In this document: positions 1-34,803 of the stretch, piece after piece
How positions within the stretch are numbered: position 1 is the stretch's first letter
Layout: each line of letters opens with the position of its first letter
Origin: a virus
DNA: 34,803 bases
Reading direction: 5' to 3' (one strand)
IMG/VR virus record: IMGVR_UViG_3300032326_000196
Coordinates: 1-34,803 of that record
Position numbers and translations under genes: made by a program
The notes under the pieces: generated by a model
Database searches by the model: none
What the model was told of the DNA's origin: nothing
What the model saw: only the letters and a program-made list of their open reading frames with translations

Positions 1-474
1 ACCGAAATACAGCGTGCCACTCGTCGTGATCGGACCACCCGTCACCGATACGTCAGCGCTTCCTTGCGCAGTCACGCTGGTCACAGTACCCGTGAACTGG
101 TCAGCCGAGGAGATCGTGAAGTTCGGATACGTGCCGGTGACGCTCGTCGTTCCAGATCCAGTAAGGACAACGGTTTGATCCGGCGCGCTGTTGATGACCT
201 CGATGGTGCCGCTGCTTGTAATCGGACCGCCTGAGATCGAGATGCCGGTGCCAGCCGTCAGCGAGACGCTGGTCACAGTACCCGTGTACTGGTCGGCGCT
301 GCTGATCGTGAAGTTCGGATAAGTTCCCGTGATCGTCGTGGTACCGCCTTGCGTGAGCGCAACGACCTGATCCGGCGCCGTGTTGGTCACCTGAATCGTG
401 CCGCTGGTCGTAATCGGTCCACCGCTAATCGAGATGCCCGTGCCTGCGGCCAGCGCAACGCTGGTCACGCTGCC
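1..474 (-). repeat. 64-residue direct repeats in the fibre gene
   Basis: Two full 192-nt units (283-474 and 91-282) are followed by a partial copy (1-90). Each carries TSV, AGTGISISGGPIT, APDQ and TGTYPNFTISSADQ. The plus-strand anchor ctggtcacagta recurs at 77 and 269, exactly 192 nt apart. A gene of this kind can easily break or collapse a short-read assembly. Confidence 0.85.
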
Positions 475-1995
475 ACCGCCTGCCGTGCTTTCGAGCGTGC
501 CTGCGTTGTAGGTCAGGCCCGATCCGACCGTGACGGTCGCAAATCCGCCGCTGCCGTTGCCAGCCAGTATGAGCGTACCAGTCGTTGCAGGCGCGAAATA
601 AGTGGTCGACTCAAACGCAGCGCTTCCGAGGCCAGAGACTTGACCAGTCGTGATCGCAATCGGCGTGTTCGCCGCCGCCGTGAGACGACCCTTTGCGTCC
701 ACAGTAAACGTGCCGACCGAACCAGCCGCACCGTAACTGCCTGCCGTGACGCTCGTGCTGGACAGACCCAGCGTAAACGTGCCGCTCGTCGTGATCGGCC
801 CGCCTGAAGACGTCACATCGCCGTCGCTGGTTACAGCAACACTCGTCACCGTGCCGCCACCACCACCGCCGCCCGTAGCCGAAAGAGTGCCGCCCGTGTA
901 CGTCAGACCAGTTCCGACCACGACCGAAGAAAACCCGCCCGAGCCGTTGCCGCTCAGGATGTCGCTGCCTGTGGTCGCAGGCGCGAAAAACGTCGTGGAC
1001 TGCAACGCGGCGCTGCCAAGTCCCGTGACCTGACCAGTCGAGATGCTGATCGTCGCATCTGCCGCAGCGGTCAAACGACCTTGGCTGTCCACCGTAAACG
1101 TGCCGACCTTGTTCGCTGCACCGTAGCTTCCTGCCGTGACTGCCGTGCTCGCAAGTGAGATCGAAAAAGTGCCGCTGGTAGTGATCGGACTGCCGCTGAC
1201 TGCGACTGCGCCATCGCCCGTCGCTGCAACGCGCGTCACAGTACCTGACCCGCCACCGCCTCCGGTCGCTGCGATCTCGATCCCGCCAGGCGTGTTCGTG
1301 ATCGTGACGTTCGATCCAGCCGTGAGCGTGTTGAGCTGGAACGTGCCGCCGTCACCGATGAGCAACTGACCAACGCCAGGCGTTCCAGTCAGATCGGTGA
1401 TGCTGTTGATGTTCGAGCCACCGCCGCCCGCACCGCGAGCAGCCAGCAGCGTCCATGACTTCGCAGACCGACTCGGCTTTTCGCGCGTCGTCTCGTTCGC
1501 GATGTAGCTGTCGCCGTTGAGCGATACGACATCAAGCGCCTGATACTCGCCAGCCTTCCACTTGCCGAGCGGTTGAAGCGTTGCAGGCACGGCAAACTCA
1601 GTCCGCGTCTTGACTGCCTCATCCAGCAATTGCGTGATCTTCTCCGGCAGTTCAGCCGCTGCGAGCTGGATGCGCTGCTCTGCGACCTCGAGCAAATGCG
1701 CGTTCTTCTCGCGCTCCTGCATCAACGCCGTGTACTTCGCGCCAGCAGCCAACTCAAGACGACTCAGCAGATCCTTGACCTCGGACGAGATCTTGCCTTC
1801 CAGCGCCTTGACTTCGTTTCCAGCCAAGACCGCCAGCTCGTCACGCAGATGCGGCTCAACGTCCTCAAGCGCCAGCGCTACTTCGTCGCGCAGTTGCGTG
1901 CGCAACTCAGGCAGCGAATCGACAATACGCGCGATTTCCTCGCGCTGCTCGATTGCCAGCTCGATCAGGTGGTCGATCTGCTTTTGCGTGTCCAT
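1..1995 (-). CDS. Repetitive tail fibre protein (C-terminus beyond window)
   Basis: The open frame starts at ATG 1993-1995 and runs 665 codons to the left edge without a stop, so the 3' end is missing. Residues ~1-125 are charged and heptad-like (coiled coil). Residues ~130-175 resemble a small carbohydrate-binding fold (LGKWKAGEYQALDVVS, then SYIANE and W-LLAARG). A glycine-rich linker follows, then tandem Gly/Ser/Thr-rich beta repeats that begin GTVTSV and contain GGPITTSGT. Such repeats are typical of phage fibres and side-tail fibres. Repeat periods are 130 aa (twice) and then 64 aa (two copies plus a partial). The gene lies 3 nt after the portal stop, and a Tfa-like gene and a glycosyltransferase gene sit at the other window edge. 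Role in host binding is inferred; the receptor-binding C-terminus is not visible. Confidence 0.85.
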   Translation of the reverse strand, partial: MDTQKQIDHLIELAIEQREEIARIVDSLPELRTQLRDEVALALEDVEPHLRDELAVLAGNEVKALEGKISSEVKDLLSRLELAAGAKYTALMQEREKNAHLLEVAEQRIQLAAAELPEKITQLLDEAVKTRTEFAVPATLQPLGKWKAGEYQALDVVSLNGDSYIANETTREKPSRSAKSWTLLAARGAGGGGSNINSITDLTGTPGVGQLLIGDGGTFQLNTLTAGSNVTITNTPGGIEIAATGGGGGSGTVTRVAATGDGAVAVSGSPITTSGTFSISLASTAVTAGSYGAANKVGTFTVDSQGRLTAAADATISISTGQVTGLGSAALQSTTFFAPATTGSDILSGNGSGGFSSVVVGTGLTYTGGTLSATGGGGGGGTVTSVAVTSDGDVTSSGGPITTSGTFTLGLSSTSVTAGSYGAAGSVGTFTVDAKGRLTAAANTPIAITTGQVSGLGSAAFESTTYFAPATTGTLILAGNGSGGFATVTVGSGLTYNAGTLESTAGGGSVTSVALAAGTGISISGGPITTSGTIQVTNTAPDQVVALTQGGTTTITGTYPNFTISSADQYTGTVTSVSLTAGTGISISGGPITSSGTIEVINSAPDQTVVLTGSGTTSVTGTYPNFTISSADQFTGTVTSVTAQGSADVSVTGGPITTSGTLYFG
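475..1245 (-). repeat. 130-residue direct repeats in the fibre gene
   Basis: Two copies of a 390-nt unit start at 1245 and 855. They are anchored on the GTVT motif and on the conserved segments TAGSYGAA, VGTFTVD, GRLTAAA and GLGSAA, followed by FFAPATTG or YFAPATTG and GNGSGGF. The second copy is slightly shorter (127 codons). The period is an exact multiple of three, so the frame is kept. Confidence 0.85.
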
Positions 1996-1998
1996 GTC

Positions 1999-4266
1999 TT
2001 AGGCGCTCGGATTCAGTTGACGTTGGCAGACTGCGTAACGTTGCGACTCGTCGGGAAACTCAGCAACGACAGTTGCGTCTCCCATGCAGCGAGTCAGGAA
2101 CTCCTCGCCGCTTTCCGCCGCAGCCGGCGTCGGAAGGACAAACTCCTTTTTCTTTTCGGACAGCTCGCGACGATAAGCCGCAATTGAAGACAGCCAGTCT
2201 TTCGATGAAAGCCGACGAGCAGCAAAGTCTGCTTCGACTTCTGACTTGAGCTGGACCTTGGGCGTTTCATCGGCGTTCTCCTTTCGGTTTAGCCGTTCGA
2301 CAATGGCATTCGCCCAGGTGCGGCCAGCGTCACCACCCCAGCCATTCCATGCCTGCCAGCCTTTGCCTTGCTCGTCCCAGGTTGCGCCTTGCTTGTCTAC
2401 TTCATGCCGATCGAAGTAGGCTTTCATGCGTCGTACAGTGTCGGCAGACAAAGAACGCTTGTTGATGATGTCTCTCGCTCGAGCCAAACCAACGGCGGTC
2501 ATTCCGCGTTCCGAAGCAGGCTTCGACTCACGAACATCCAAAGCGCGCTTTGCGTTGGCCGCCATTGAGTCGTTCGGAACGTAGCCATCCTCGGCAAAGT
2601 CGATGACGATGCGTTGATCGTGCAGCTCGGAGTCTGCCTGCGATGCTTCAGGAGCGGGAACAGCAGCGACTGCCTTTGCATCCGCTGCCCCCTTGGCTGT
2701 CGCGTTGACCGCATCAACCGCGTCCTGCGTGACCTGACCACCGAGCGCAGACGCCATCGCCGGATTGGCTGGCAACTGTTGAGTGACCATGCGGATCGAA
2801 GTTTCCGGCACGCCGTAGCGCTGCGCTAGTTCCGAGATGAAGTTTGCCTCAATCGCAATCTGCTCAAGACGACCGAAAGCGTCGGTGCCTTCCTCGGCTG
2901 CAATCTCTTGCAGCGACTTAGCGCCTTGGCGGTTCTCGTTCAGATTCGCCGCAGACTCGCGCCCGATGTCGATCGTCAGCTTGGCTGGGAAGCGCCACTC
3001 GCCGCGAGTCGCACGCTTCATCGCCTGCACGACCGTCTCACCCTCACGACGCGGAGGCGGCGGGATCAGTTCGCGCGCGATAGCATCGAGGATAACTTGG
3101 TTCTTGATCGGATCGAGCACCTTGTCTTGCAACAGTCCTTGATGGCGCGTGAACACGCGATCAGCCGCCGCAAAGTCAGCGCGAACGCTCGGTCCCTTGT
3201 AGTTCTGTGTACCGAACAGAACGCCTTCGGGAATGCCGACACCGATTGCGATCTCGTGCATCAAGTGCTGGACGAAGCCCTCAAAGGCTGCGCTCGGCCT
3301 CGACGGCATCACCTCGATCTTGTCTGCGCTGCCGAAGTATCGAATGTTGCCGATGTCGCTCAGTTCGTTTTTCTGCGTTTGACCGTTCGGGAGCGTCGAC
3401 GCCGGCGTCGGCGTGAACAGGTTTCTGCCGTTGGCAGTTCCTCGGTCAGAAAATACGAGGGCGGCTTGCTGACTAGCAAAGCGGACGCCAGCTTTCTCAG
3501 CTTCCAGAATCTCGTAGAGCATACGAGCCGTGCGGATTGCAGCGTGGAAGTCAGTAACTCCACGGTATTGATCCACGCGAAACGGATCGTAGTAATGGCA
3601 GAAGAACTGACTTTCGATGTCTTCAGGATCATAATAGACGCCCTCTCTGGTCACGCGGAACACTCGGTACGCCACAGGACGACCGAACTCATTCGTGAAG
3701 ATGCCTTGGAAGTAGTTAGCCGGGTCCGCGCCGAGTGCGTTCGGATTGCCGATGCGCGTGCCAGGTACAAGCTGGATCTTAAGTTCACCATCGACGCGAC
3801 GAATCACAAAGCCGCAGTCGCCGTCAACTGGTCGCTGCTCGGCTGCAAGCTGGATCAGTTTCTTAAAGGTGTGCCGGTTCGTGACGTCGCACGTCTTGCA
3901 CCACTCGTGGAAGTAGTCCGACACAATCGCGTTGTACTCACGATCGCCGGTCGTCGGTGAGTACTCGTGCGGAGTCAGGTAGTTGCCGAACTTGCGGCTG
4001 ATCTCGCGCGCTTCGGGAAAGTTCTCAACGAGGTCGCGAGCTTCCCACATCATGACGATGCGGTCGCGGACGGTCGTGTTCGACTCGGACGGCAAGCCGT
4101 ACTGTTTCGGCGCGTAGAGTCGATTGGTCTGCGCTGCGTTGTAGTTGAAAAGCGCCGCCTGCACGCGCGACTCCATGCGCTTCAGTCCCCACGCCGGCGC
4201 AACTGCCGAGATTGCCTTATCGTACCACGGTGCCGAGGCGATGACCTTTGAAGCGTCGAAGTCCAT
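1999..4266 (-). CDS. Portal protein, lambda gpB family, with extra C-terminal domains
   Basis: This is a 755-residue lambda-type portal, the dodecameric DNA channel at the capsid vertex. The N-terminus MDFDASK is followed by a tyrosine/arginine-rich region with NRLYAPKQYG, DRIVMMWEARDLVENFP and later GVLFGTQNYKGPSVRADFA, typical of the family. I chose ATG 4264-4266, which follows the gpW-like stop directly. An in-frame ATG at 4299 overlaps that gene and has no ribosome site. From residue ~548 it departs from the classical length. It carries a domain with YVPNDSMAANAKRAL, GLARARDI, RRMKAYFDRHEVDKQ and WNGWGGDAGRTWA (~562-660), then a cysteine-containing tail EEFLTRCM...EFPDESQRYAVCQRQL (~721-750). 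Both modules are, from memory, more often seen on phage maturation proteases or other structural proteins. Confidence 0.93.
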   Translation of the reverse strand: MDFDASKVIASAPWYDKAISAVAPAWGLKRMESRVQAALFNYNAAQTNRLYAPKQYGLPSESNTTVRDRIVMMWEARDLVENFPEAREISRKFGNYLTPHEYSPTTGDREYNAIVSDYFHEWCKTCDVTNRHTFKKLIQLAAEQRPVDGDCGFVIRRVDGELKIQLVPGTRIGNPNALGADPANYFQGIFTNEFGRPVAYRVFRVTREGVYYDPEDIESQFFCHYYDPFRVDQYRGVTDFHAAIRTARMLYEILEAEKAGVRFASQQAALVFSDRGTANGRNLFTPTPASTLPNGQTQKNELSDIGNIRYFGSADKIEVMPSRPSAAFEGFVQHLMHEIAIGVGIPEGVLFGTQNYKGPSVRADFAAADRVFTRHQGLLQDKVLDPIKNQVILDAIARELIPPPPRREGETVVQAMKRATRGEWRFPAKLTIDIGRESAANLNENRQGAKSLQEIAAEEGTDAFGRLEQIAIEANFISELAQRYGVPETSIRMVTQQLPANPAMASALGGQVTQDAVDAVNATAKGAADAKAVAAVPAPEASQADSELHDQRIVIDFAEDGYVPNDSMAANAKRALDVRESKPASERGMTAVGLARARDIINKRSLSADTVRRMKAYFDRHEVDKQGATWDEQGKGWQAWNGWGGDAGRTWANAIVERLNRKENADETPKVQLKSEVEADFAARRLSSKDWLSSIAAYRRELSEKKKEFVLPTPAAAESGEEFLTRCMGDATVVAEFPDESQRYAVCQRQLNPSA

Positions 4267-4267
4267 G

Positions 4268-4507
4268 TTAGTTCCCGTTGAAGCTGACGTAAGTGACATC
4301 TGCGCTGGTGCCGTTCTGGTAGTCGATAGCAGCCACGATCTGGCCCAGCATGACGTTGAGGCGGGAAAGGTCTGCGCGCGTGACGCTCTTTCCGTTCAGC
4401 GAGTAGGAGCTGTTAACCAGCACAGCGCGAATCGCGGCCAGAGTCTCGGTCTTCAGCGTGGCGAGCGTGGCAAGATCCAAGCCCTCAAACGGGTTGTCAG
4501 TTCCCAT
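4268..4507 (-). CDS. gpW-like head-tail joining protein
   Basis: A 79-residue protein sits between large terminase and portal, the position of W in lambda. The C-terminal half, GKSVTRADLSRLNVMLGQI, resembles the helical part of gpW-family proteins (a beta hairpin with a Gly-Lys turn, then an R-A-x-L helix). gpW binds at the portal vertex after packaging and prepares the capsid for FII and tail addition. The N-terminal ~20 residues are longer than in lambda W. The stop lies 1 nt from the portal start, which suggests coupled translation. Assignment rests on position plus weak sequence similarity. Confidence 0.72.
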   Translation of the reverse strand: MGTDNPFEGLDLATLATLKTETLAAIRAVLVNSSYSLNGKSVTRADLSRLNVMLGQIVAAIDYQNGTSADVTYVSFNGN

Positions 4508-26446: not shown

Positions 26447-27154
26447 CTATGCTCCAAATGTCACAACCACTGACTTTTCGGTGATGGTGTCGTCCTGCGG
26501 CGTACCTGAAGGTATATGGTAGTACCTCTCGCGGACGGCATCGCAAATGATTGCGGGAGCGCTGTTGATCGTCATGACCTCGCGAGCGTCACGCAAGATG
26601 CGGATCAGCTCGGGAATATCGCGAGCGGTAATGAACAGCGACTCAGACCAGCCACGCCAGACGCAGGCTTCCACCTGCTTAGGGTCGGCAAGGATACGCA
26701 TCGGTGCCTTGAACTGCGCGAAGGCGTACTGACAGACCATCGCTGGGTTGTACTGGACGGTCTGCGAATAGCCAAACGGCGAGACAATCGCCGTCAGCGG
26801 CCCCATAATCGCGTCGTCCATCGCCGGTCGCGGATCGAGCTTGTCGAAGACAATGCGACGATCCATGCCGGCCAACTCAGGAACAAGACCGTAAACGTAA
26901 TCAGCCCACGACTTGCCGCTAGCTCGAAAGTCTGCGTAGCGCTCAGGCCAAATCTGTAAGTCGATCCTCTTGGCCTTTCCTGCTCGACCAGGCGCAACAG
27001 GCGTTGCGTAGCTGACGACATCAAAGAGCGAGTGATACTGCGGCAGGCACTCAATCAGCACCTCGACGCCTTGACCTGCAAGATGTCGCGCAATGGGCAG
27101 GCAGCGCAGCACGTCTCCGAGCCGCTCATGGTAGACCAGCACAACGTTTTTCAT
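26447..27154 (-). CDS. GT9-like (heptosyltransferase-type) glycosyltransferase
   Basis: 235 residues from ATG 27152-27154, in ATGA overlap with the previous gene. The N-terminus VVLVYHERLGDVLRCLPIARHL matches the signature of ADP-heptose:LPS heptosyltransferases (R-x-G-D-V-L near residue 10). The C-terminus (TINSAPAIICDAVRERYYHI) resembles the S-A-P-x-H-I nucleotide-sugar binding part of GT-B enzymes. Shorter than bacterial heptosyltransferases (~330-350 residues), so perhaps a minimal or inactive form. Last of a four-gene cassette between capsid and connector genes. Confidence 0.72.
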   Translation of the reverse strand: MKNVVLVYHERLGDVLRCLPIARHLAGQGVEVLIECLPQYHSLFDVVSYATPVAPGRAGKAKRIDLQIWPERYADFRASGKSWADYVYGLVPELAGMDRRIVFDKLDPRPAMDDAIMGPLTAIVSPFGYSQTVQYNPAMVCQYAFAQFKAPMRILADPKQVEACVWRGWSESLFITARDIPELIRILRDAREVMTINSAPAIICDAVRERYYHIPSGTPQDDTITEKSVVVTFGA

Positions 27155-27924
27155 ATGTCGCCAGCGATGACCCAAGGTTGCTTGTCGAGGAACTTGAAAT
27201 AGTCGCACAGCCGCACGTCGCCCTTGCTTTTCTGCAATCGACGCCAGCCGTCGACTAAGCCTTCGTACTGGTAGAACTGCTCCTTAAATGCAACCTGCTC
27301 CTCGGTGAAGTAGGCGTAGTGGTCGAACACAAGACCCATCGCTCGCGTTGTCTCGCGCGGAACGTAGCTCGCCCAAGCGTTCAGCACCGGAGGTTCGTGG
27401 CTGTTGAAGCGGAGTCCCGGCGCCATCTTCCACGCGCGGAACCATTCGTATGACATCGAGCCAAATCCTTGCCGCGTCGTCACGACCTTGCTCGGCCCGA
27501 CGAAGTAAAAACAGTCGAACTGCGCGAAGTCGCCAGGCTGCTTGTCCTGCAACATCTCGTAGATTCGCTCTAACTGGTCAGCAGTCCAGAACTCGTCGGC
27601 GTCGATCTGCATGACGACGCCATCGGTGACGTCTTCCATGGCTGCATTGACCATTGCGATCTTGCCAGCCCAAGGACCGAGCCTCCACGTCACGCGCACG
27701 CGCGGATCATTGATGCTGTCTAGGTACTCAGTTGTCCCGTCGATCGATAGCCAGTTCCGGTGCCAGCGGTCCTGCACCTCGGCACACCAGCTTGTACACT
27801 CCTGCGGACGCGAGACGCCTTCGACAATGTGCCAGCGCCACGGGATCGTTAGCTTCTGGAAAATCGGCAACTGCTTATCGATGAACGGTTTCCCGTTCAA
27901 AACGATTGTGAAGATGGTCAGCAT
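27151..27924 (-). CDS. GT2-like glycosyltransferase
   Basis: 257 residues from ATG 27922-27924, overlapping the methyltransferase end by 7 nt. LTIFTIVLNGKPFIDKQLPI is the GT-A entry strand. WAGKIAMVNAAMEDVTDGVV leads to MQIDADEFWTADQLERIYEM, containing the D-A-D metal/nucleotide-sugar site. The rest (FNSHEPPVLNAWASYVPRET, then LVFDHYAYFTEEQVAFKEQF) resembles phage and bacterial glycan GT2 enzymes. Sugar and acceptor unknown. Confidence 0.85.
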   Translation of the reverse strand: MLTIFTIVLNGKPFIDKQLPIFQKLTIPWRWHIVEGVSRPQECTSWCAEVQDRWHRNWLSIDGTTEYLDSINDPRVRVTWRLGPWAGKIAMVNAAMEDVTDGVVMQIDADEFWTADQLERIYEMLQDKQPGDFAQFDCFYFVGPSKVVTTRQGFGSMSYEWFRAWKMAPGLRFNSHEPPVLNAWASYVPRETTRAMGLVFDHYAYFTEEQVAFKEQFYQYEGLVDGWRRLQKSKGDVRLCDYFKFLDKQPWVIAGDI

Positions 27925-28466
27925 TGCGTGATCCAAGACTGACCGACAATCGTGTATCGCCCGACCGTCTCAGCGACAGCGCGTCGCACTCCATCGTATC
28001 CGCCGAAGTCATGACCAGCCAAGTAGCCGCCAGGCTGCACCTTTTTGCTCCAATGGATAATGTCCGAAAGGACATCCTCGTACTGATGCGATGCGTCGAT
28101 GAAGACCGCAAACACCGACTTGTCGTCGAACAGCTTTGATGCCTCGGTCGACGGCAGCGGCAAGCAATGCACCGCGTGCAGGATCGGCTTAATGTTCTGA
28201 AGGAAGTGACCGACCATTGAACCAGTCGCAAGTTGCGGATGGCCTGCGTGCTCGATACTGCCTCGGAACGTATCGACCGCGTAAAGCTGCAACTGTTTCT
28301 GGCTCTTGATCGCCTCGACTCCGAGGAACGCCATCGACCGACCACGCCACGAACCGACCTCAACGATCGTCGCACCGACCGGCGCTTCCTCGATAAAGCG
28401 CGAGTAAATGTTCGCGTAGTCGAACCAGTTCTCACCGAACCGCGACTCATGGAAAAAGTGGTTCAT
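27918..28466 (-). CDS. Class I SAM methyltransferase (Methyltransf_24-like)
   Basis: 182 residues. IVEVGSWRGRSMAFLGVEAI is motif I with the AdoMet loop; LYAVDTFRGS has the acidic end of strand 2; VFIDASHQYEDVLSDIIHWS and PGGYLAGHDF complete the class I core. The D-A-S-H-x-Y-E pattern marks a family often found in glycan loci that acts on sugars. ATGA with the GT upstream. Probably methylates the same glycan. Confidence 0.87.
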   Translation of the reverse strand: MNHFFHESRFGENWFDYANIYSRFIEEAPVGATIVEVGSWRGRSMAFLGVEAIKSQKQLQLYAVDTFRGSIEHAGHPQLATGSMVGHFLQNIKPILHAVHCLPLPSTEASKLFDDKSVFAVFIDASHQYEDVLSDIIHWSKKVQPGGYLAGHDFGGYDGVRRAVAETVGRYTIVGQSWITQC

Positions 28467-30154
28467 GGATTGCGTGCCTCAAACAGTTCCTTGCCGCGCT
28501 TGTACCGCTCGCTCTTGTTGTTGTGGTGGTAAGTCGGATCGAGTGGACCGTTGCTGAAGTGCGGATGATCGTGAACGAACGTCACTTTGTCGCGCGCATC
28601 AACGACGATGTTGTCGGCCCAGGCTCGATGACTGAACTCGTTGTCTGAGAATACCGACTCGTAGCCGGCGAAGAACATATCACCTTGAGCCTCCCAGCGA
28701 GCGCGCGACATAATCGCCATGCACATCAGCTCGTCTTTGCGGTGCCCGTCATGTACGGCGATGGCTAGTTGCTCCTTCTTAAGATCACGCAGCGCGACTA
28801 GTTCCAAGAGCTGCAAATCCCAATGCAGCGGCGGCAGCCAGTCGTCGGAAAGCTGGATCAGCAGGTCGCCGCGCGCCTTGCGTGCGCCCAGGTTCCAGGC
28901 TGCAACGCAGCTCTGCTCCTTACTGGTGACGTGGACGAACTGCTGCGACATCTCCATCGAGACGCTGTCATCAAGGTCCACACAGAAGATGTGCTCGACG
29001 TTGGCCGGATTGGCAGCGGCTTGCAGGAAGGCTTCACGGCAGGCAACGGCTTTGCTGGATCGACCGCGCGTGGCATGGATCAGCGAGATCGTCGGCTGCT
29101 TGCCGGCGTGAAAGTGGTCTTGTAGGGCCTGCGCTCGCTCGACGTGGCCTGCGTAGCGTGCCGCGCGTGCCGCTAGATCGATTCCGTACCAGCCGTAATG
29201 CTTAGCCTCATGCGTCCACGGTCGGTCCTCTAATGGCGGTTCTGGACGCTCTAGCGCTCGTTCTGCCCAGTAGTAGGCACGCTGTCGGTCGCCCTTCTCA
29301 AAGTAGAGCAGGATGAGCGCGTTCAGCGCCTCGCGACACCACGGGAAGACGCCATGCGCTTGCAGACAGTAGTTGATGGACTCGCGATGATTACCGCAGC
29401 AGCGCGCCACGTTCAGCAATGCCTCGTACTTAAACGAGTCTTGCAGGTTCGGCATCGAGATCGCCAGCTTGCCGAACTCCTCCGCCGCCTTGAAGTTGCC
29501 AGAGCAGTAGTGCTCTTGGTGAATGTAGAAATACTGCGACGCAGCGTCCCGTACCGAGTTCCGCAGGATCCGCAGGTTGCGGTGCCGGTTCTCGCGCTTG
29601 ACCTCCAGCGGCGCATGGATCCAAACCGGATCGTCGAGGTCGATGTGCTTGTCGCCGGCGAGCAGCAGCAGGTTTTCGTGGACATCGTGATGCCACTTGC
29701 GACCAGCCTCAAAGACCGTGCGCCGGATAGCACGCTCGCGGAACAGCTTCTTGCTGGTGCCTCGGACGTCGTAAAGGAAGCGCGCCATCGACACCTCATC
29801 AGGCAGACCAGCCAGAACCTCCTTGAGCCGATCTGCGTTGTCGAGCAGGTCGTCGCAATCGCACCAGATCAGCCAATCTCCGGTGCCTTGGCGAAAGGCT
29901 TCGTTGCGCGCTTCACCGAACGAGTCGACGTGCTCCCAATGTTCGGATCCAGGCTGGTTTAGGTGCTCGCGGAAACGGAATGTCTTGTCCTTGGCCTCGC
30001 ACCAGTCACGCGCGATGGACAGCGTGCGGTCAGGCTGGCGGGCGCCGATAGCTCGTACCAGCGACAACTCATCAAAGGCTGGACTGAATGAGTCCAGCAT
30101 TCGCTCAATGTGGTGTTCCTCGTTCCCGCAGATGACGCAAAGCGATACGCGCAT
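28463..30154 (-). CDS. Two-domain GT2 glycosyltransferase with TPR-like middle
   Basis: 563 residues from ATG 30152-30154, chosen because the terminator lies upstream in the same frame. Domain 1 (~1-230): SLCVICGNEEHHIERMLDSF, FGEARNEAFRQGTGDWLIWC and a D-C-D-D site. The middle (~230-360) is a helical repeat region resembling TPRs (AAEEFGKLAISMPNLQDSF, ALNALILLYFEKGDRQRAYY). Domain 2 (~360-563): ISLIHATRGRSSKAVACREA, FCVDLDDSVS with a second D-x-D-D, LLIQLSDDWLPP, and a glycosyl-acceptor region. Two catalytic cores in one protein suggest sequential addition of two sugars, or one core that only binds. First gene of the cassette. Confidence 0.87.
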   Translation of the reverse strand: MRVSLCVICGNEEHHIERMLDSFSPAFDELSLVRAIGARQPDRTLSIARDWCEAKDKTFRFREHLNQPGSEHWEHVDSFGEARNEAFRQGTGDWLIWCDCDDLLDNADRLKEVLAGLPDEVSMARFLYDVRGTSKKLFRERAIRRTVFEAGRKWHHDVHENLLLLAGDKHIDLDDPVWIHAPLEVKRENRHRNLRILRNSVRDAASQYFYIHQEHYCSGNFKAAEEFGKLAISMPNLQDSFKYEALLNVARCCGNHRESINYCLQAHGVFPWCREALNALILLYFEKGDRQRAYYWAERALERPEPPLEDRPWTHEAKHYGWYGIDLAARAARYAGHVERAQALQDHFHAGKQPTISLIHATRGRSSKAVACREAFLQAAANPANVEHIFCVDLDDSVSMEMSQQFVHVTSKEQSCVAAWNLGARKARGDLLIQLSDDWLPPLHWDLQLLELVALRDLKKEQLAIAVHDGHRKDELMCMAIMSRARWEAQGDMFFAGYESVFSDNEFSHRAWADNIVVDARDKVTFVHDHPHFSNGPLDPTYHHNNKSERYKRGKELFEARNP

Positions 30155-30172
30155 TGCGTAGCGCGAACCGTC

Positions 30173-30210
30173 AAAAAGAAAATCCCCCCACCCGCTACGC
30201 AGGTGAGGGG
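30173..30210 (-). terminator. Intrinsic terminator after the major capsid gene
   Basis: On the minus strand, CCCCTCACC (30210-30202) pairs with GGTGGGGGG (30192-30184) with one mismatch, around a 9-nt loop. A U-rich tail ATTTTCTTTTT (30183-30173) follows. It stands 25 bases past the capsid stop and before the glycosyltransferase gene. It would lower transcription of the GT cassette and the tail genes relative to the capsid genes. Confidence 0.82.
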
Positions 30211-30234
30211 AGAACACAACAACCCTAACAGAGA

Positions 30235-33184: not shown

Positions 33185-33628
33185 TTACTCGGGCTGGCTA
33201 GGCCAAATAACGTTGAACGGAAAGCCAGGCTGCGCAGGAACGTCTCGAAGCGCCTGACGGTAGCTCGCCCACTGAGCTTTTGCCACGTTGTCGAGCGGCG
33301 TGTCGTCTAGCTGCGTCCAGTCGCACTGAGAGATGCGACCGTTGCGATCATGCCGGACGTGCTTCTTCTTGTCCTCGGTCTCCTTGGCGATCTCCTCGGC
33401 GGTCTTGTACCGATAAACGCGCGTCTCAACAACCTTGTCGGCCAGCACCTGCACAACGGTCTTATCCAGCACTTCTCCTCCGTTGTCGATGGTCTCATAT
33501 GGCAACCAACCCAGCGCGCGCAAACTCTCGTCGCCCATGTAGCACAGACCAGACACGTTGCGCCAGCCGTTGGGCAGCGAACGCGGACCGTCGATGACCT
33601 GACCGTTTTCGGTGTAAGCGTATTTCAT
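33185..33628 (-). CDS. Tail fibre assembly (Tfa)-like protein
   Basis: 147 residues. SQCDWTQLDDTPLDN, then AQWASYRQALRDVPAQPGFPF and NVIWPSQPE are the C-terminal signature of phage tail fibre assembly chaperone-like proteins. The N-terminal half (YAYTENGQVIDGPRSLPNGW, VSGLCYMGDESLRALGWLPY) is like fibre-tip modules. ATGA overlap with the GT9-like gene upstream. Supports a fibre locus at this end of the window. Confidence 0.77.
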   Translation of the reverse strand: MKYAYTENGQVIDGPRSLPNGWRNVSGLCYMGDESLRALGWLPYETIDNGGEVLDKTVVQVLADKVVETRVYRYKTAEEIAKETEDKKKHVRHDRNGRISQCDWTQLDDTPLDNVAKAQWASYRQALRDVPAQPGFPFNVIWPSQPE

Positions 33629-34803
33629 AATTCAGCGACAGCGTTGCGCAGTTCCTCCATAGGATGGTGCCATTGACCAAAGACGCTTTGACGGAACAGC
33701 CTCATCGAGTCGCAGTAAGGCGTTTTCGGTCCCGGCAAGGCGTAGAGGTAGTAAGCCATCACGGGAATGACGATCCAGGTCTTGACTCCCATTGCCGCAG
33801 CCAAGTGCGAAACGGACGTGCAAGAGCTGATTACGAGGTCGCAGGACGCAACGGCGCGCTGCGTATCTAGCCACGAGTCGAGCGGAACAGTCTCGACCCA
33901 ATCAGGCTTGGCATCGAGATCGGCGTCACGTTGCAGCGAGATGAACCGCACACCGTCGCGCTTCACCGCGTCGAAGAACGGCGCAGGCGGGAACAGCTTG
34001 TGATGCTCCTTCTCGAACTGCTTGTTACCAGACCACCGCAGGCCAATCGTTAGCCGATCCTTCGCGACGTGCGGACGTGCGATGTACGGCTTGCCTGAGA
34101 TGTCAGCCAGTTCAAGACCGAGCGGCACCGGAGCAGACATTGCCGGAAGCCAGTAGTCGTGATACACGCCAAACTCTGCGCCGTGCTGGACGACGGCAGA
34201 CACGCCCGCAATGTCCTTGAGCAACGCGCACAGACTGCCGCTGGCCGATAGCACCACCTTGCAGCCACGCGCGACGAGATTGGCCGTGTACCGCGCTTGA
34301 TGAATCTGATCGCCTAGACCGCCTTCCAAGCGCAGCAGCACCGTGCCGACTTGGCCGTTCCAGAGCGGCTGCGGCGTGTGCGGTGCCTTGTCGCCAAAGA
34401 TGCCGACGCGACGGCCTTGGTGCATCAGTCGGTAGCCGTCTTGAATCTTGCCGTCGCGCAGTTCGTACCAGCCACGATTAAAGGCAGCACGCGAGTCATC
34501 AGGTCTTTCGTTCGCCAGCTTGTCCGCGATGCGCCGCCCATCTTCAAAGTTTCCGATCATCGACGCGGACAGTTGCAGGTCGAGGTCGTCAATCTGCGGC
34601 AGCGTGGTCGGCTTGTCGCGCCAGAACTCAGGATGGCAGAACTTGGCGTAGTGGTATCCGAGAACGTCCTTGGCCGACTGATTGTGCTGTCGTGCCAGCT
34701 TCGGCTTGATGTCGTGCATTCCGGCGTAGCCGTGAACGAACTCGTCGTTTTCCTTCACGCTTGAGCCGTCGATGTGGTCGAGGTCGTAGTCGAACGGAGG
34801 CAG
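33625..34803 (-). CDS. TPR / GT9-like glycosyltransferase (5' end beyond window)
   Basis: The frame is open to the right edge, so the start is unknown; GTG 34756-34758 is a possible internal start. After a fibre-like or linker start come helix repeats (SMIGNFEDGRRIADKLANER, AAFNRGWYELRDGKIQDGYR), a GT-B region (LLRLEGGLGDQIHQARYTAN), IGLRWSGNKQFEKEHHKLFP and CDLVISSCTSVSHLAAAMGV. This matches the TPR plus GT9-like family seen in phages and in LPS or flagellin glycosylation. In the same frame as the fibre gene at the left edge if ends are joined. Substrate unknown. Confidence 0.78.
   Translation of the reverse strand: MPPFDYDLDHIDGSSVKENDEFVHGYAGMHDIKPKLARQHNQSAKDVLGYHYAKFCHPEFWRDKPTTLPQIDDLDLQLSASMIGNFEDGRRIADKLANERPDDSRAAFNRGWYELRDGKIQDGYRLMHQGRRVGIFGDKAPHTPQPLWNGQVGTVLLRLEGGLGDQIHQARYTANLVARGCKVVLSASGSLCALLKDIAGVSAVVQHGAEFGVYHDYWLPAMSAPVPLGLELADISGKPYIARPHVAKDRLTIGLRWSGNKQFEKEHHKLFPPAPFFDAVKRDGVRFISLQRDADLDAKPDWVETVPLDSWLDTQRAVASCDLVISSCTSVSHLAAAMGVKTWIVIPVMAYYLYALPGPKTPYCDSMRLFRQSVFGQWHHPMEELRNAVAEL

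Follow-up and report, generated by a model that had tools for sequence, protein, structure and literature searches.

A predicted sulfotransferase-glycosyltransferase gene at a phage tail fibre locus appears to be paired with the gene for an RCC1 propeller

The stretch of DNA analysed here (the window) is the complete IMG/VR virus record IMGVR_UViG_3300032326_000196 of 34,803 bases, which is linear and has no end repeats. The coding strand of its main genes is the minus strand (Table 1). Read on this strand around the ends, the gene order is terminase, portal, fibre, the two contig ends, the gene at 33625-34803(-), the tail fibre assembly gene (Tfa), a holin-like gene, head protease, capsid, a glycosyltransferase (GT) cassette and tail genes. 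This order makes both ends of the window candidates for a single interrupted locus. The original prediction, made from the window sequence, had placed the gene at 33625-34803 opposite the fibre gene across the window ends, had coupled it to a Tfa-like gene and had linked it to the tail fibre locus, and all of this was borne out. The truncated fibre gene lies at the other end, the start of the Tfa gene overlaps the stop of the GT gene by 4 nt, and complete relatives unite both ends. In the related locus L016, for which most shared proteins are 82-91% identical to those of the window, portal and fibre (1,220 aa) are followed by a 370-aa RCC1 protein, a 582-aa protein composed of a sulfotransferase (ST) and a GT (ST::GT), Tfa, a holin-like protein, protease, decoration and capsid protein. 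The same order was found in L057 and L268, in which no Tfa was recognised. The Ser/Thr/Gly-rich fibre of the window is 83% identical to that of L016 (residues 1-657), the C-terminus of which matches a PHROG tail fiber protein. As judged from the relatives, both window ends belong to one locus with the order portal, fibre, RCC1, ST::GT, Tfa.

Table 1. Features of the window that are discussed in the text.
Feature	Position (strand)	Extent	Basis or remark
Tail fibre	1..1995 (-)	665 of about 1,220 codons	3' end lost at contig end
Portal protein	1999..4299 (-)		PF05136, E 1.3e-37; directly upstream of fibre gene
Gene without family match	26447-27208
GT2	27151-27936		Supported as GT
Methyltransferase	27918-28466
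Protein with two GT stretches	28463-30217		Supported as GT
Tail fibre assembly (Tfa / Phage_tail_APC) protein	33185..33628 (-)		PF16778, E 4.5e-25; PHROG tail fiber assembly, E 8.7e-22
ST::GT, C-terminal part	33625..34803 (-)	392 codons	5' end lost at contig end; open 5' frame and relatives
GT9-like GT-B domain	33628..34347 (-)	Residues 153-392	Predicted structure and invariant motifs
TPR-like helical hairpins	34405..34587 (-)	Residues 73-133	AlphaFold2 model, helices 73-82, 86-99, 104-116 and 120-133

With L016 as a template, about 3.4 kb is predicted to be missing from the window, of which the fibre accounts for about 1.7 kb, RCC1 for 1.1 kb and ST for 0.57 kb; the RCC1 gene and the ST domain of the window's own phage are predicted to lie in this gap. 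If the ends were closed bluntly the fibre and GT reading frames would be in frame, but a fibre-GT fusion was rejected because relatives hold about 3.4 kb at this point, including the whole RCC1 gene. An exact search with the GT end matched one public contig (L002), which ends at the identical base (window 34803, L002:1); the same search with the fibre end found no matching contig. The first codons at the 34803 end of the window show 100% DNA identity with phage L003, and plausibly the assembler halted where the sequence is identical to L003. That the window and L002 break at the same base, where the sequence turns identical to another phage, probably reflects a branch in the assembly graph.

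The gene at 33625-34803 had been described as encoding a TPR and GT9-like protein. Its open frame of 392 codons, TPR-like helices and GT-B domain (pLDDT 90 in the model) agree with this description, but the gene is not whole. All 14 relatives that were examined and retain DNA upstream extend the frame by about 190 codons in the 5' direction, and this N-terminal extension corresponds to Sulfotransfer_3 (PF13469; E 1e-14 to 4e-17). In six relatives tested the domain, itself missing from the window, scored 55.7-63.7 bits against a curated cut-off of 27. By comparison with these relatives, the open reading frame 33625-34803(-) is the C-terminal two thirds of a protein of about 583 aa, in which an ST would be followed by TPR-like helices and a GT9-like GT-B domain. 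An alignment of 11 relatives shows no variation in the P-loop PRSGST of the ST (5'-phosphosulfate loop) or in its R117...S125 (the 3'-phosphate-binding Arg/Ser of the PAPS site). A weak match to the protein-tyrosine sulfotransferase profile was obtained over residues 4-190 (E 0.002-0.006); by eye, there is no obvious catalytic Glu where the protein-tyrosine sulfotransferases have one, and the RCC1 blades of L016 are poor in Tyr. A weak match to NoeE was also observed. In the TPR-like region the match to the TPR_16 profile remained below threshold. In one ST::GT gene (L030:6446-8227), ST and linker share 84-97% DNA identity with L003 and L016, and residues from about 320 to 440, the N-lobe of the GT, share 46-66%. 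This pattern suggests an exchange of the GT lobe that would be expected to bind the acceptor.

The GT part of the window protein was modelled with AlphaFold2 together with 60 diverse sequences (pLDDT 90.2); an earlier model of full-length ST::GT with 11 close relatives reached a pLDDT of 62 and was set aside. In structural comparison residues 153-392 of the model matched WaaC (Z 16.5, rmsd 3.1 over 227 residues), RfaF (1psw, Z 16.1) and TibC (Z 15.1, rmsd 3.1 over 236 residues), and the following matches fell to Z 13 and 11. Foldseek E values of 1e-4 to 1e-5 were obtained for SPY/OGT, WaaC and TibC. Arabidopsis SPY held the first rank, but with a TM of 0.33/0.23, and SPY was absent among the VIA-align matches listed. 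The predicted GT-B fold of the terminal gene is therefore closest to WaaC and TibC, and in the model it is of the WaaC/RfaF type. The Pfam GT9 profile (PF01075) scored 11.4 bits, below its cut-off of 22, for which reason the domain is called GT9-like and not a member of GT9. In the 60 sequences G162-x-G164-D165 and H333 are invariant and T329 is nearly so. In the sequence alignment of the GT family the residue preceding T329 is Cys, not Asp. The GT9 motif of WaaC, which we take to be G-x-G-D in the N-lobe and D-T-x-x-x-H in the C-lobe, would have its C-lobe Asp at the position that reads Cys here. The donor may therefore be other than ADP-heptose.

At least four GT-type proteins had been counted in the window. 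The count holds for the terminal gene, for 28463-30217 with its two GT stretches and for 27151-27936, but not for the methyltransferase gene and the gene without a family match. The cassette at 26447-30217 adjoins the major capsid gene in relatives, whether RCC1 is present or not. It looks like a separate core locus and a second, independent system, the target of which is perhaps the capsid. The possibility that the GT2 cassette and the terminal GT form one system was rejected, because the cassette belongs to the core and shows no linkage to RCC1. The cassette GT is only weakly similar (22%, E 1e-6) to a gene of the RCC1 cluster of Synechococcus phage S-SRM01.

The 370-aa protein encoded between fibre and ST::GT in L016 is an RCC1 beta-propeller of seven repeats (PF00415, E 3e-97), and the RCC1 genes of the relatives also carry seven such repeats (E 1e-74 to 1e-97). 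To describe its association with the GT, viral contigs were scanned from the GT side with the window protein, with an ST::GT alignment (best 80 of 456 relatives) and with divergent GTs (best 80 of 495). The ST::GT loci were dereplicated at 95%, and an RCC1 gene was called immediately upstream if it ended within 200 nt. Among the matches listed, RCC1 lay immediately upstream in 34 of 34 distinct ST::GT loci that could be tested. For the divergent GTs, most of which stand alone, it was directly upstream in 45 of the 63 matches listed and directly downstream in 2; another 14 had it no more than 5 kb away and 2 lacked it, so that 61 of these 63 have RCC1 adjacent or within that distance. The GT2a family, i.e. 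the window gene 28463-30217 and its relatives from the same phage lineage, served as the control; RCC1 was adjacent in 0/79 and within 5 kb in 3/79. Fisher's test of adjacency against this control gave p 7e-33, a value that overstates the certainty because the loci are of common ancestry and not phylogenetically independent, although the contrast is still plain. Pairing with RCC1 is thus near-obligate among the matches listed. It is kept across differing phage backbones and with ST and GT either fused or as separate genes, and in many phages RCC1 genes are found on both flanks of the enzyme. Complete RCC1 reading frames mostly hold 7, 14, 21 or 28 repeats, equal to one to four propellers. In L238, L241, L245, L252, L259 and L263 the frames have between 28 and 39 repeats, enough for some four propellers or more per chain, and each is followed by a stand-alone GT. 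Two loci of the same phage type (L011:997-1959 and L012:997-2109) differ by exactly one RCC1 blade of 150 bp (6 versus 7), which is either a true loss of a blade or an assembly collapse of near-identical repeats.

When RCC1 was used as the query instead, a GT and/or ST was present in 56 of 76 loci, a proportion biased upward because the queries were taken from GT-linked RCC1s. The other 20 had neither in the sequence available, which implies that RCC1 does not always need the enzyme. A scan of 84,980 species yielded six loci only; in 4 of the 5 MAG contigs RCC1 lay next to an ST::GT fusion, and these are probably viral. A bacterial origin of the module was rejected on these results. On these gene orders, the gene paired with the GT is that of the RCC1 propeller, a gene missing from the window. 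The adjacency is a sign of shared function and not, by itself, of an enzyme-substrate relation.

The partner was further considered in loci of the window's backbone in which the interval between fibre and head protease is visible. This slot contains both RCC1 and GT in 12 loci, which reduce to about six independent positives once repeat contigs are removed, neither in 17 and a single one of them in 0. L267, which is 96-98% identical in most backbone proteins, keeps the same fibre shaft with a different fibre C-terminus and has neither RCC1 nor GT. In L276 and L282 a Gly-rich protein occupies the slot instead, and none of the alternative slot contents carries a GT. The slot behaves, to judge from its contents, as an exchangeable receptor-binding cassette, and the GT belongs to one version of it. 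In L267 the place of RCC1 and ST::GT is taken by a long C-terminal part of the fibre (L267:3-3620), in which SGTTxTV-like motifs recur and which, on inspection by eye, may be a further propeller.

The Ser/Thr-rich repeats of the fibre had been proposed as the acceptor, together with a comparison with relatives that lack the GT gene. According to this explanation ST::GT would glycosylate and sulfate the fibre repeats, and RCC1 would be a mere neighbour. The composition of the fibre, rich in Ser, Thr and Gly, and the position of the enzyme gene, two genes downstream of the fibre and overlapping the fibre assembly gene, are in agreement with it. However, L267 and other backbone relatives keep the shaft without the enzyme, enzyme and RCC1 also occur together behind unrelated fibres (collagen-like in L003 and L041, other types in L035 and L040), and many phages have RCC1 on both sides of the enzyme. 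We therefore consider the fibre an unlikely acceptor and this part of the original prediction probably wrong. As the same shaft exists without the enzyme and RCC1 and GT are gained and lost jointly, the comparison points to RCC1 and not to the fibre repeats as the partner, and the RCC1 propeller is the more likely acceptor.

Within the propeller the blades combine a conserved scaffold with hypervariable codons (9, 11, 12, 42 and 43), a pattern that a binding face would be expected to show. In three RCC1 genes (L016:5539-6651, L026:2422-3573 and L028:2245-3396) the blades within a gene are about 90% identical in DNA outside these codons. The hypervariable codons of these genes end in C in 92-96% of cases versus 40% elsewhere, and the variation is mostly in the first two bases. 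This NNC-rich variation resembles, in its codon pattern, adenine-template diversification. A diversity-generating retroelement as its source was rejected, since reverse transcriptase (PF00078) was found in 0 of 19 records, many of them fragments, and no full blade-like template copy outside the RCC1 reading frames of the loci examined. A comparison of 1,241 GT-linked with 93 GT-free blades, the latter from 14 proteins only, revealed no acceptor Ser, Thr, Asn or Tyr position specific to the GT-linked blades; conserved Ser/Thr positions are common to both.

RCC1 genes in similar surroundings are found in cultured and other phages. In S-SRM01 the long tail fiber distal subunit is followed by RCC1, a hypothetical gene, RCC1, TPR/GT, a 2OG-Fe(II) oxygenase, four hypothetical genes, RCC1, a sulfotransferase, a hypothetical gene, a GT, a hypothetical gene and a nucleotide-sugar epimerase. 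The products of the three RCC1 genes are gp335, gp337 and gp344. The oxygenase within this cluster (L093:5953-6411) could, as a hydroxylase, prepare an acceptor residue. BUCT-ZZ01 has the order tail fiber, hypothetical gene, RCC1 of 14 repeats and GT, and the marine virus AG-345-E08 the order RCC1, RCC1, GT, RCC1, ST. In Clostridioides, Brevibacillus, Bacillus (SP-15) and Listeria phages RCC1 genes are located in the tail fibre region with no annotated GT or ST adjoining. The RCC1-like gp1 of phage GAP32 was detected among the structural proteins by mass spectrometry (PMC5259590), and the propeller of Staphylococcus aureus phage phi11 is a putative receptor-binding platform (PMC4901313). Together with the RCC1 genes of tail fibre regions this makes a role of RCC1 as a tail adhesin in the window's group a well-motivated proposal by analogy, the virion evidence coming from one other phage.

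It is fairly probable, from the gene associations described above, that ST::GT serves specifically the RCC1 propeller encoded next to it, and this propeller would probably be the receptor-binding protein. Late in infection the tail fibre and a separate seven-bladed propeller would be made, the propeller serving as or capping the receptor-binding tip. The TPR-like segment would dock the GT-B half on its substrate, the GT-B half would transfer a sugar onto the propeller, and the fused ST half, if active as well, would move sulfate from PAPS to the added sugar or its acceptor, after which the modified adhesin would be mounted on the virion. ST and GT form one chain in some loci and are encoded side by side by single genes in others, which suggests that they catalyse consecutive steps. 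As ST is absent from many loci, glycosylation would be the core step and sulfation an addition. In this way the phages would probably attach a sugar, perhaps a sulfated one, to the protein with which they grip the host. More tentatively, a widespread phage module may make sulfated glycoprotein adhesins, in which a dedicated GT-B enzyme would glycosylate a hypervariable RCC1 propeller at the fibre tip, a fused or neighbouring ST would sulfate the glycan, and receptor binding would depend on this phage-encoded modification.

The enzyme could instead alter LPS, capsule or exopolysaccharide of the host, to block superinfection or to release progeny, RCC1 then binding the unmodified form. Seroconverting phages are well established, the nearest folds include the LPS heptosyltransferases WaaC and RfaF, and the NodH/NoeE-type sulfotransferases, to one of which ST is weakly similar, act on glycans. 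Nevertheless, the gene lies in the fibre slot of the late structural operon and is strictly associated with RCC1. This argues against a host surface target, as do the absence, by eye, of a membrane segment in the enzyme and the proximity of the fold to the protein glycosyltransferases TibC and TPR-OGT/SPY, so that this explanation is improbable. That RCC1 and GT merely travel together in a recombination-prone adhesin slot with no common biochemistry would fit the swapping of the slot among relatives and the domain-level recombination of L030, but is very unlikely given that the pair is retained across different backbones, with ST and GT fused or separate and with 7, 14, 21 or 28 blades, that alternative slot contents have no GT and that the catalytic motifs are conserved.

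The proposed modification of RCC1 by ST::GT can be compared with known systems. TibC, a heptosyltransferase with a protein substrate, hyperglycosylates the repetitive adhesin TibA, and the BAHT family (TibC/AAH) is characterised by an iron-finger motif with four conserved Cys (PMC4358343). Like TibC and AAH, which act on TibA and AIDA-I, the terminal GT has a heptosyltransferase-type GT-B fold (Z 15.1) and a gene paired with that of a repetitive, beta-rich adhesin. Unlike these enzymes, the window protein has no CxxC pair at all and thus no iron finger, its GT-B domain is preceded by a helical TPR-like region and, in relatives, a sulfotransferase further upstream instead of an N-terminal beta-barrel, and the partner of this ST-fused GT is an RCC1 propeller. 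The terminal GT is not a member of the TibC family. With OGT and SPINDLY (GT41), the latter at Foldseek rank 1, it shares the order of TPR-like helices followed by a GT-B domain, but its TPR segment is very short, the global match is weak (TM 0.2-0.3) and in the second aligner it is nearer to GT9.

For mycobacteriophages (Che8 and relatives), the account in PMC11256854, citing Freeman et al. (2023), describes phage-encoded GTs that glycosylate virion proteins, with modification of the major capsid protein and a proposed glycan shield. The GT studied here is likewise phage-encoded, its virion target being a proposal from the genes; its partner, in contrast to the Che8 capsid protein, is the RCC1 propeller encoded at the fibre locus, and a sulfotransferase comes in addition. 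Beta-propellers as (putative) receptor-binding domains of virions are found in phi11 Gp45, PRD1 P2 and phiKZ gp131C (PMC4901313), whereas here the RCC1-type repeats are encoded by a gene of their own, accompanied by one for a putative dedicated modifying enzyme. The jumbo phages GAP32, phAPEC6 and 121Q also have RCC1-like proteins, for which a role in DNA organisation was suggested (PMC5259590, PMC7247149); there, too, several genes per phage are common and one product was detected in virions, but here the genes linked with RCC1 are those of tail fibres, GTs and sulfotransferases. The sulfotransferases of cyanophages S-SKS1, S-SRM01 and S-SCSM1 belong to the same superfamily as that of ST::GT (23-30% identity), but stand alone with no role stated in the annotation, that of S-SRM01 directly downstream of an RCC1 gene. 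Phage virion glycosylation (mycobacteriophage capsids), phage RCC1 proteins and phage sulfotransferases are thus already known separately; no report of an RCC1-GT-sulfotransferase pairing was found in the open-access literature searched.

GTs and sulfotransferases in the structural operons of phages are usually classed as auxiliary or host-takeover genes. Here the GT has a specific partner, a repetitive propeller of the fibre locus, in phages of dozens of distinct lineages, cultured cyanophages among them, which makes its substrate directly testable. For the phage RCC1 proteins, earlier suggested to be DNA organisers, a role in adhesion is more likely. If the proposal is true, host recognition would involve a covalent, phage-encoded modification of the adhesin, and recombinant adhesins produced without the enzyme would miss this modification.
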